Below, one piece after another: positions 61,779 to 64,000 of a DNA stretch of 64,000 nucleotides. Both the position numbers and the translations under genes were made by a program. The notes under the pieces are model-generated. The model ran no database searches, was not told the DNA's origin, and was given only the letters and a program-made list of their open reading frames with translations. Source of the stretch: an uncultured Eubacteriales bacterium. Its GTDB lineage: Bacteria; Bacillota; Clostridia; Lachnospirales; Lachnospiraceae. The stretch spans positions 1 through 64,000 of the forward strand of contig OMVN01000007.1 in NCBI GenBank assembly GCA_900314525.1, given 5' to 3'. Each line of letters opens with the position of its first letter. Positions within the stretch are counted from its first letter, which is position 1.

Positions 61779-63575
61779 TTAATTATTTAAAGTAACCTCG
61801 TTTGCTGATGAAATGAATTCTTTCAAATATTTTTGCATATTAGAATTACATGCATACACATAACATCCTTTTATTCCTCTAGCCAGAATAGTTGTATATG
61901 TATTTATGATTAATTCTTTAAGAGTTTCTTCATCGGTAGCAGCTTTAACTTTTGAATCCTTATATTCATTTAAATTAACAACAAGTGAATTTGTTTCAAA
62001 ATCATAATCAATCTCTTTACCGAAAATAACACCTGCATAGTTCATATCATATCCTTGAGTAGTATGAATGCATCCGATGGTGTTGTGAGAATCCTGTCTC
62101 GTCATCCAAGAATCATTTGTCAAATTCCATATATACTTATTCCCCTCAATAGATATATCATATTCACCATTTTGAACTAATGAATTGTAGTACTGCATAT
62201 CGTCCTTAGGCTTTTTATTCGGTTTTGTCTTCCAATCCCACGAAAAACCTGCAACTGTTTTACACAATCCCATTTCATCATCTTTTTTACGTATAGACTC
62301 AATAAGAGTATTTACATCATCAAAAATAATGAAATCATAATTTTCTATTTTCTCTCGTTTATTGCGCAAGCAAGACATAACATCTTTCACATATTTAATG
62401 TATGTATCTCCTCCTTGACAACGCATTTGTGTTTCCAATTTATATTTATGAATTTCATATACATACTTGCTAAGTGTGTTTTTATATTCTTCATGTGTTA
62501 AATCCGATGACTTAACTGTTTGTGTCTGATCATAAAATAAAACAACATGTTTTGCTGATTTCATTATCCAATCAAGCTGATTTGCTTCATGTGGATCTAA
62601 CCCCAATCCCCTACATGTATCATCAAATGATTTATAACCAGTTAAGTTTTTTCTTTTTGACAAACGGTGTGATTCATCAACAAAAAGGATATCATATTTT
62701 TCTTTTACAACATCAGTTGGACCAATAACCATCTCTCCAACTAATCCATTTCCACATTCTTTAAATACTTTCTTTACAGTAGATCTTATTCCTGGCATTG
62801 GAAATACAAATCCAATTTTGAATGCTTTACCACCCCTATTCAAAGAGATATGTTTTTTTAACCTTAAAAGAGTTCCCCTTTTGTTCTCATCTATATCATC
62901 TTCAAAATTCTCAGCCTTGGTGTCTAATAAATTATCATCAATATTTATTGCATTGATTAATGAATTAATGATACTAATAGCAAGAACTGTTTTCCCTGTT
63001 CCTGCGCATCCATTTACCAGATTTACACCGTTAGCGCCTTTTTCAAATGTATCTATAATATCATTTATGATTGACACACTTACTTCATTCTGTTCGCCAG
63101 TTAATGCATTATACGGAGAAAATTTAAAAATATTATCGTTCTCAATAATATCTAAGGAATTTTTGGCAAGATTTTTATTAATTAGTTCTTTCCAAAGCAC
63201 TCTAAACTGTCCACGATACTCTTCTCGCTGATAATAATCATGAATAGCTTGCTGCCCCTTGTTTTTATTAATAATTCTTTTAAATTTTCCATCTACTGCA
63301 CAGTACTTTATCAATCTTTGCTCATAATCTAATATTACAGACTTGTTGTATCTTCCATCAAAAACAATTTCTATTCCCTTTAGTTTCTTCTTCTCATTAT
63401 TTTTTAAATGCTGGCTCATTCTGACTGCAGCACTTGTAGTCTCGCCAATGTACAGATTTTCATCGTCATGAATAAGATAAACTACAGGCCAATTAACACC
63501 TTTATCATGTTTTTTTAACAAAGTAAGACCACTATCATTAAAATCAAAATGTTTTATCTCATTAATAATTGGCAT
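61779..63575 (-). CDS. GIY-YIG nuclease fused to a DUF2075 helicase
   Basis: An N-terminal GIY-YIG domain (about 30-105) shows VYLI and YIG (42-44), Arg52 and Glu85, the expected catalytic residues. The DUF2075 superfamily-1 helicase follows: Walker A GCAGTGKT (189-196), Walker B FVDESHRL (DESH at 300-303), YDQTQTV and the CIHTTQGYDMNYAGVIFG motif. 598 residues. Its neighbour encodes a MazG-like pyrophosphohydrolase, 15 bases upstream. Likely defence or stress function, but this is inference. Confidence 0.88.
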   Translation of the reverse strand: MPIINEIKHFDFNDSGLTLLKKHDKGVNWPVVYLIHDDENLYIGETTSAAVRMSQHLKNNEKKKLKGIEIVFDGRYNKSVILDYEQRLIKYCAVDGKFKRIINKNKGQQAIHDYYQREEYRGQFRVLWKELINKNLAKNSLDIIENDNIFKFSPYNALTGEQNEVSVSIINDIIDTFEKGANGVNLVNGCAGTGKTVLAISIINSLINAINIDDNLLDTKAENFEDDIDENKRGTLLRLKKHISLNRGGKAFKIGFVFPMPGIRSTVKKVFKECGNGLVGEMVIGPTDVVKEKYDILFVDESHRLSKRKNLTGYKSFDDTCRGLGLDPHEANQLDWIMKSAKHVVLFYDQTQTVKSSDLTHEEYKNTLSKYVYEIHKYKLETQMRCQGGDTYIKYVKDVMSCLRNKREKIENYDFIIFDDVNTLIESIRKKDDEMGLCKTVAGFSWDWKTKPNKKPKDDMQYYNSLVQNGEYDISIEGNKYIWNLTNDSWMTRQDSHNTIGCIHTTQGYDMNYAGVIFGKEIDYDFETNSLVVNLNEYKDSKVKAATDEETLKELIINTYTTILARGIKGCYVYACNSNMQKYLKEFISSANEVTLNN

Positions 63576-63590
63576 TTTATCGTCTCCATC

Positions 63591-63923
63591 CTATAACTTA
63601 TTATATTTATCACTTTTACCTTTTGCCTTGGACACTGGGTATTTTTCATTATTCACTCGTATTTTTTCCTGAACAATTTCATCTATGTCTAGTCCGCATG
63701 CATCCGCCATAAGAACACAATAGTTTATCACATCGGCAAGTTCTTCCTTTATCTTCTCCTGCTTATTATCACTTGATGTATCCGAACCACTCCATTGAAA
63801 AACCTCAAGTAACTCTGCAGCTTCTAATGAAATTGAAATTGCTAAATCCTTCGGATTATGGAATTGCTTCCAATCCCTATCATCTCTAAATTTTAAAATC
63901 TGATTAATTGTCTCTTGAGTCAT
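63591..63923 (-). CDS. MazG-like nucleotide pyrophosphohydrolase
   Basis: A 110-residue all-alpha NTP pyrophosphatase of the RS21-C6/iMazG type. The metal ligands ExxE (34-37, SLEAAELLEVFQW) and ExxD (61-64, EELADVINYC) are visible. It cleaves (d)NTPs to monophosphates. It is just upstream of the helicase gene and probably co-transcribed. A GAAAT ribosome site (AAGGAG) precedes the ATG. Upstream DNA to the window end shows no clear promoter. Confidence 0.88.
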   Translation of the reverse strand: MTQETINQILKFRDDRDWKQFHNPKDLAISISLEAAELLEVFQWSGSDTSSDNKQEKIKEELADVINYCVLMADACGLDIDEIVQEKIRVNNEKYPVSKAKGKSDKYNKL

Positions 63924-64000
63924 TTTATTTCTCCTTGTCTATGTATAATTAATGTATTCACTATCAATTTTTTCACTTTCTTCCGTTCCTACGATTTGTT

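Follow-up and report, generated by a model that had tools for sequence, protein, structure and literature searches.

Several described systems lie close to the two-gene module analysed here, in which a fusion gene for a predicted GIY-YIG nuclease and helicase is accompanied by a MazG-like gene (Table 1; the window denotes the whole 64,000-nucleotide stretch of DNA that was analysed). SauUSI-type, type IV methyl-directed enzymes accompanied by a Nudix protein combine the same three elements (nuclease, helicase and NTP pyrophosphohydrolase), and a MazG protein of the same family adjoins them in loci L141 and L143; however, these enzymes carry a PLD-like nuclease, a ResIII/Helicase_C motor and DUF3427, whereas the window protein carries GIY-YIG and a Schlafen (SLFN) group 3 helicase. 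The window pair also differs from type IV restriction enzymes in having no recognised modified-base reader, readers being present beside its relatives. The Schlafen group 3 family (PF09848, which we take to be the former DUF2075) was matched by the window helicase domain at 205.5 bits, and the PADLOC candidate PDC-S41 was matched by three PD-(D/E)XK-type relatives that we scanned, whereas the window protein gave no PDC-S41 match at E ≤ 1; in place of the PD-(D/E)XK-like head it has GIY-YIG, and it has a MazG partner in addition. Similarly, three PD-(D/E)XK-type relatives of the helicase matched Nhi/AbiO over approximately 150–180 residues, whereas the window protein matched neither model at E ≤ 1. 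The PADLOC candidate PDC-S14 was matched by the window helicase protein in its GIY-YIG part (residues 27–106, E = 1.9e-6), but this match spans only positions 47–125 of the 305-position model, with the helicase lying outside it. The MazG-like protein shares its sequence family, the ExxE/ExxD metal sites and a WxQFHxP motif with dCTP pyrophosphatase 1 (dCTPP1)/RS21-C6, whereas the window version, a predicted enzyme, is linked to a nuclease-helicase gene.

The window pair is a GIY-YIG/SLFN group 3 plus MazG arrangement outside the models of PADLOC-DB 2.0.0: none covers the pair, the helicase protein matching PDC-S14 partially and mad8 at E = 0.015, and the MazG-like protein matching none at E ≤ 1. 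We found no published description of the pair among the matches listed, most subscription papers lying outside the search, and no literature linking DUF2075 with GIY-YIG or DUF2075 with a pyrophosphohydrolase. Searching SauUSI together with Nudix returned no paper relating them, the only co-mention being unrelated.

Table 1 Location of the module genes and domains in the window.
Feature	Position	Strand	Basis
Predicted GIY-YIG nuclease–SLFN group 3 SF1 helicase fusion, 598 aa	61779..63575	(-)	ORF, Pfam, 17-sequence alignment, AlphaFold model
Predicted GIY-YIG domain, residues 32-89	63309..63482	(-)	Pfam, alignment, PADLOC PDC-S14
Predicted SLFN group 3 helicase domain, residues 184-576; Walker A GCAGTGKT, Walker B DESH	61848..63026	(-)	Pfam, alignment
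Putative MazG-fold NTP pyrophosphohydrolase, dCTPP1/RS21-C6 type, 110 aa	63591..63923	(-)	ORF, Pfam, alignment, PDB searches

Both open reading frames were present on one strand, separated by 15 bases, as the initial annotation had described. In the 598-aa protein, the GIY-YIG profile PF01541 scored 24.4 bits against a Pfam cut-off of 22.6, and the PF09848 match (cut-off 24) ran over profile positions 3–353 of 354. Aligning the window protein with 16 homologues (two of the 17 rows being incomplete at their ends, L034 at a contig end and L029 at an early stop) revealed that Y42, G44, R52 and E85 of the GIY-YIG domain were invariant (17/17), and that the helicase residues G189, G192–T196 (Walker A) and D300/E301/H303 were invariant as well. 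The first GIY-YIG motif of the window protein reads VVY, not GIY; the Tyr, Arg and Glu of the core are presumably catalytic. With this core the protein is a predicted GIY-YIG nuclease, consistent with the earlier description of the domain as apparently active, and with a full-length helicase domain and invariant motifs it is, as judged from sequence, a member of SLFN group 3 (PF09848), which bears out the complete SF1 helicase of that description. An N-terminal Schlafen core (AlbA-type) RNase was not found in the window helicase by Pfam at E ≤ 1, the N-terminus being GIY-YIG. The AlphaFold model was of fair quality (mean pLDDT 81.4, pTM 0.68), and its top Foldseek match in the PDB was human SLFN11 (7zel, E = 2.4e-9), although the TM-score was just 0.33 and numerous other helicases ranked closely after it; a PDB sequence search with the window helicase gave no meaningful match. 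Pfam and other profile scans recognised no modified-base reader domain in either window protein, and none was recognised by eye in the 16 kb around the module, of which part of the genes were scanned; both results count against the reading that we favour below.

The 110-aa protein matched PF12643 at 83.3 bits (cut-off 27), and E34, E37, E61 and D64 were invariant in 16 of 16 aligned sequences, so that the ExxE and ExxD metal sites are kept, as had been claimed. Its nearest solved structures by PDB sequence search were 4qgp, a pyrophosphatase (E = 9.1e-21), and dCTP pyrophosphatase 1 (6sqw, E = 7.1e-18), the latter also being matched in a profile search at E = 7.2e-25. The structure was predicted as an all-helical monomer forming one compact domain with no sensor (pLDDT 88.6). 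With ExxE and ExxD in a predicted all-alpha fold, the protein is a putative pyrophosphatase of the MazG-fold/dCTPP1 type. According to the available part of PMC10742078, 5-methyl-dCTP hydrolase activity has been reported for mouse RS21-C6, human DCTPP1 and E. coli Orf135, and the available part of PMC3855555 reports that a mycobacterial MazG cleans 5-OH-dCTP. Neither a deaminase nor an HD-type dNTPase domain, as in the dCTP deaminase and dGTPase depletion defences, was found in the window pair by Pfam at E ≤ 1.

The 30 strongest PF12643 'MazG-like' loci of the phylum (L101–L130) were observed to be of another kind, 0 of 30 being recognised by a window-type MazG profile, which indicates that PF12643 lumps unlike proteins. 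PF12643 counts were dropped as a baseline for the window-type MazG since these loci belong to a different subfamily, and the MazG survey was therefore repeated with the window protein itself.

On the 3' side, the module is followed by a Crp/Fnr-like regulator and core genes (named by eye), and the earlier placement at the end of a core-gene run holds on this side within the window. It fails past base 64000, where the contig continues with a type I Wadjet operon (PADLOC JetC1, E = 4e-172; JetA1, E = 5.5e-65), whose gene run lies about 0.6 kb from the MazG gene, and with serine recombinases. The window helicase was found in 0 of 9 same-genus genomes searched, and a helicase match in 10 of 61 genomes searched, the window's own genome counted. 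Given the Wadjet and recombinase surroundings and this distribution, the module is accessory DNA in an island. The stretch beyond the window (L045:4550-15757; contig C56, approximately 64550-75757) holds the JetA1/JetC1 genes, then a phosphoesterase-like gene and the two serine recombinases (all three named by eye).

We ran the check proposed with the initial annotation, scanning genome contigs for conservation of the pair. MazG adjoins the helicase in 15 of the 18 helicase loci obtained, with MazG first in 4 and the helicase first in 11 (at one paired locus, L029, the helicase frame ends early); in the 3 unpaired loci the helicase is cut by a contig end (L034) or has a short frame (L041, L044). 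Counted by genome, the pair is present in 4 of the 10 helicase-matching genomes among the 61 searched (G000, G017, G027, G035) and absent from G013, G024, G030, G038, G041 and G057, of which G013, G024 and G030 carry MazG on another contig; the helicase matches in G030 and G038 were only partial. Thirty-seven plasmid or phage records had a helicase match, and 10 were opened on that hit. MazG adjoins the helicase in 5 of these 10 (Ligilactobacillus, Priestia, the archaeon Halalkalicoccus, a gut 'phage' clone whose faecal record is marked unverified, and the Microcystis phage Mwe-JY31), and an eleventh plasmid record, NZ_CP028230, opened via another gene, contains the pair too. In Halomonas L149 and Marivirga L148, both reached through a MazG hit, an SLFN-type helicase or fragments of one lie nearby; viral contigs searched with the window helicase yielded no relative. 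Many SLFN group 3 helicases have no MazG neighbour (5 of the 10 plasmid/phage loci, and the relatives in G013, G024, G041 and G057), which counts against our preferred reading.

In the 24 pairs with both ends read, the genes lie on one strand with spacing from a 23-base overlap to a 59-base gap. The MazG gene also pairs with helicases bearing an N-terminal D...ExK pattern, found by pattern search at L051, L067, L068, L070 and L132, and at L133 with one gene between; this pattern is typical of PD-(D/E)XK nucleases, and the N-terminal region of the L051, L067, L068 and L070 helicases received no Pfam name at E ≤ 0.01. Carriers of MazG plus an SLFN group 3 helicase with a PD-(D/E)XK-like head include an archaeal plasmid. 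Helicase and MazG distances correlated over 27 pairs (Mantel r = 0.675, with 0 of 2000 permutations as high). As judged from sequence identities, some pairs have clearly reassorted, for example L054, whose MazG is 83% identical to that of the window (85% by tblastn) and whose helicase is 25% identical. The pair is a conserved, mobile module, occurring in both gene orders and with two nuclease types.

We also surveyed 249 genomes drawn evenly from the phylum, in which PF09848 occurred at 10 places when counted at a minimum of 140 bits; matches below 100 bits cover part of the profile and were left uncounted, the first of these (G122) being a broken helicase gene. The dCTPP1-like MazG is rare, with 16 places in 15 of the 249 genomes (E ≤ 1e-8, window MazG as query). 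Four of the 10 helicases have a same-strand MazG, directly in the window, G066 and one G099 locus, and approximately 1 kb off with one gene between at the second G099 locus; two more have a Nudix gene instead (G000 contig 40, at 24 bases; G159, with one gene between). The G127 helicase is intact and has neither MazG nor Nudix, the partial helicases of G276 and G106 have neither in the stretch fetched, and the partial helicase of G132 was checked for MazG alone in a short stretch. By simple arithmetic that ignores accessory-gene clustering, approximately 0.001 helicase loci would be expected to have MazG within 2 kb by chance, versus 4 seen. Twelve of the 16 MazG copies have no such helicase next to them, most of these copies lying among ordinary genes (by eye), which counts against our preferred reading.

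A PADLOC scan of 130 neighbours drawn from 15 pair loci, that of the window among them, hit 282 models at E ≤ 1e-8, versus 6 for 50 other window proteins; the contrast is a rough one only, given the unequal set sizes and the many models that a single gene may match. PADLOC-matching neighbours include Ppl (L032), AbiEi/AbiEii (L027, L030), DruE (L029), a type II methyltransferase (L040) and a type IV mREase (L036); of ten neighbour proteins picked for a PADLOC scan, two (L027, L033) had no match. MrcB_N proteins stand beside the helicase in L061 and L067, L061 being without MazG in the stretch fetched. The pair thus occurs among defence genes, Wadjet, AbiE and Ppl included, and its homologues are not confined to the housekeeping contexts that would have spoken against the defence role first proposed.

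One neighbour at L036, a PLD/helicase/DUF3427 protein, matched PDB entry 7clg at E = 1.2e-191; the entry is named 'putative helicase', and we take it to be SauUSI, a type IV enzyme cutting methylated DNA. The L036 protein that PADLOC identified as a type IV mREase is a neighbour of this DUF3427 protein. Seventeen bases after this DUF3427 gene lies a Nudix gene, whose product has a putative CTP pyrophosphohydrolase as its top PDB match. Seven plasmid records cover at least 80% of the L036 DUF3427 protein; among the 6 opened, Nudix adjoins the DUF3427 gene in 4 (Hymenobacter, Lactiplantibacillus, Latilactobacillus and Limosilactobacillus, whose DUF3427 gene is spread over several frames), and the Peptoclostridium and Fusobacterium records are without an adjacent Nudix. 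Similarly, the 249 genomes contain 10 full-length DUF3427 loci (>200 bits), 7 of which have Nudix within approximately 1.8 kb, 5 on the same strand (four directly adjacent, one approximately 1.7 kb off) and two adjacent on the opposite strand; anywhere in the genome, such a Nudix was present in 108 of the 249 (E ≤ 1e-8). The 3 full-length loci without Nudix, among them that of the window's own genome (L183), and the 2 with Nudix on the opposite strand count against our preferred reading. Twenty shorter DUF3427 loci taken as a negative control proved unclean, 5 of 20 having Nudix within 1.5 kb.

On the Lactiplantibacillus plantarum plasmid NZ_CP028230 (L141), Nudix, SauUSI-like, MazG and GIY-YIG-helicase genes follow one another on the same strand, spaced by 17-base gaps and a 14-base overlap; the MazG of this run is only distantly related to that of the window (25% identity), and this too counts against the favoured reading. 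Limosilactobacillus fermentum (L143) has Nudix, SauUSI-like and then MazG genes, and no SLFN-type helicase was detected in the 11 kb retrieved there. Four associated Nudix proteins were scanned, and each scored slightly higher with the MutT model TIGR00586 than with the pyrimidine-type NF007834, no cut-off being reached; a third Nudix model scored best for the L134 and L141 proteins, also below its cut-off. In view of the 5-methyl-dCTP and 5-OH-dCTP activities reported in their families, modified pyrimidine dNTPs may be a substrate class common to the MazG and Nudix partners, although the Nudix model scores speak against this. The general tendency of defence genes to cluster could account for part of the overlap.

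As a tentative reading, which we favour while holding it to be somewhat short of probable, the window pair would be a mobile two-gene restriction-type module, combining a nuclease-helicase with a pyrophosphatase that removes modified dCTP and so shields the host DNA. The GIY-YIG/Schlafen-type helicase would be the motor and DNA-cutting arm of a putative anti-phage system. The MazG-like protein, as a dCTPP1-type pyrophosphatase, would convert non-standard dCTP (5-methyl-, 5-hydroxymethyl- and 5-hydroxy-dCTP being its proposed substrates) to the monophosphate. By keeping modified cytosine out of the host chromosome it would allow a nuclease that responds to modified or aberrant DNA to spare the host, and it might also withhold modified precursors from phages. 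In favour of this reading stand the pairing in both gene orders and with two nuclease types, the defence-island setting, the likeness of the MazG-like protein to dCTPP1, and the presence of the same MazG type, or of a Nudix pyrophosphohydrolase, beside modification-dependent nucleases (SauUSI-like, McrA-like and MrcB_N proteins). A nuclease acting on modified DNA endangers hosts in which modified nucleotides are recycled, a danger that a sanitiser gene alongside would remove, as a form of self-protection. Avoidance of the host's stray modified bases by modification-attacking systems is usually ascribed to binding specificity; if our reading is true, self and non-self would be enforced at the level of the nucleotide pool too, via operon-encoded precursor cleaning, and a function would be given to a branch of bacterial Schlafen-type helicases and to bacterial relatives of human dCTPP1.

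The MazG-like protein could instead act by depletion, hydrolysing dCTP on infection so that phage replication is starved, with phage DNA being cut by the GIY-YIG helicase at the same time. This would suit a member of the dCTP pyrophosphatase family encoded in defence islands, and attack on the nucleotide pool is, according to the available part of PMC12265719, an established defence principle. We nevertheless consider depletion unlikely: the 110-aa protein is modelled as a single compact helical domain with no sensor, its relatives occur in housekeeping-looking surroundings without a nuclease (by eye), and its place is taken elsewhere by a MutT/NudG-like Nudix rather than by a deaminase or dNTPase. 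Removal of modified precursors fits better than starvation because Nudix replaces MazG in related loci and the partners include modification-dependent nucleases; the lowering of nucleotide pools proposed in the initial annotation is accordingly less favoured, also in view of the likeness to dCTPP1 with its reported 5-methyl-dCTP hydrolysis.

It is rather improbable that the two genes form a generic housecleaning or damage pair, in which the helicase-nuclease would process damaged or stalled DNA and MazG would clean oxidised dCTP, with defence secondary or absent. The 5-OH-dCTP cleaning reported for mycobacterial MazG (PMC3855555, available part), the MutT-like Nudix neighbours and the top structural match to SLFN11, a Schlafen helicase, despite its low TM-score, speak for such a role; however, the distribution is patchy (0 of 9 same-genus genomes, 10 of 61 genomes with a helicase match), and the genes are carried by plasmids and have Wadjet, Ppl, AbiE, Druantia-like and R-M genes as neighbours. 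That both genes are separate island cargo, brought together by shared mobility with no functional link, appears very improbable in the face of 24 tightly spaced one-strand pairs, of an arrangement that spans both gene orders, two nuclease types and distant phyla, and of the 4 pairs seen in 249 genomes where approximately 0.001 was expected (accessory-gene clustering ignored), even though unrelated genes do cluster in defence islands and MazG is absent from 5 of the 10 plasmid/phage helicase loci.

Beyond the window pair, we consider it conceivable, if rather doubtful, that a general unnamed class of restriction operons exists, each joining a modification-dependent or helicase-driven nuclease to a precursor-purging enzyme, with the window pair as its GIY-YIG/Schlafen-helicase branch. 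The purging enzymes would be dCTPP1-type MazG, MutT/NudG-type Nudix, or both. The purge would allow such a nuclease to be kept without marking the cell's own genome, and would block phages making modified dCTP.

Several further gene arrangements were observed. The unit of a SauUSI-like DUF3427 enzyme with an adjacent same-strand Nudix recurs at L036:13225-16625, L139, L141, L142, L143, L185, L187, L188 and L189. Contig C40 of the window genome (L131:4511-7875) holds a second SLFN group 3 helicase, 24 bases behind a MutT/NudG-like Nudix and near an apparent type I R-M locus. A 251-aa neighbour there, guessed from its look to be an SRA-type reader, was confirmed by neither Pfam nor PDB, and so the G159 counterpart alone was used. 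In G159 (L134:8615-11661), Nudix, an McrA-like HNH nuclease and an SLFN group 3 helicase form a one-strand run; the HNH part of the nuclease matched McrA (6ghc) at E = 3.6e-20, and a longer stretch matched TagI weakly (E = 0.003). The G099 run consists of MazG, an HNH protein and the helicase, the HNH protein being weakly like phosphorothioate-DNA restriction enzymes (NF045808, E = 1.8e-7, 30.6 bits versus a cut-off of 180), and in G139 a protein resembling it (by eye) follows MazG. Six consecutive genes in G017 (L048:4163-10792) encode a GIY-YIG helicase, MazG, an HNH_4-type protein, a second MazG-like protein, a SauUSI-like enzyme in three frames and Nudix; the L038 relative of the second MazG-like protein had no Pfam match. 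On a Nocardiopsis plasmid (L150:4001-5361), a dCTPP1-like MazG gene overlaps an HNH endonuclease gene by 4 bases, a possible nuclease-sanitiser pair, with a DUF2075 gene ending approximately 3.6 kb off.
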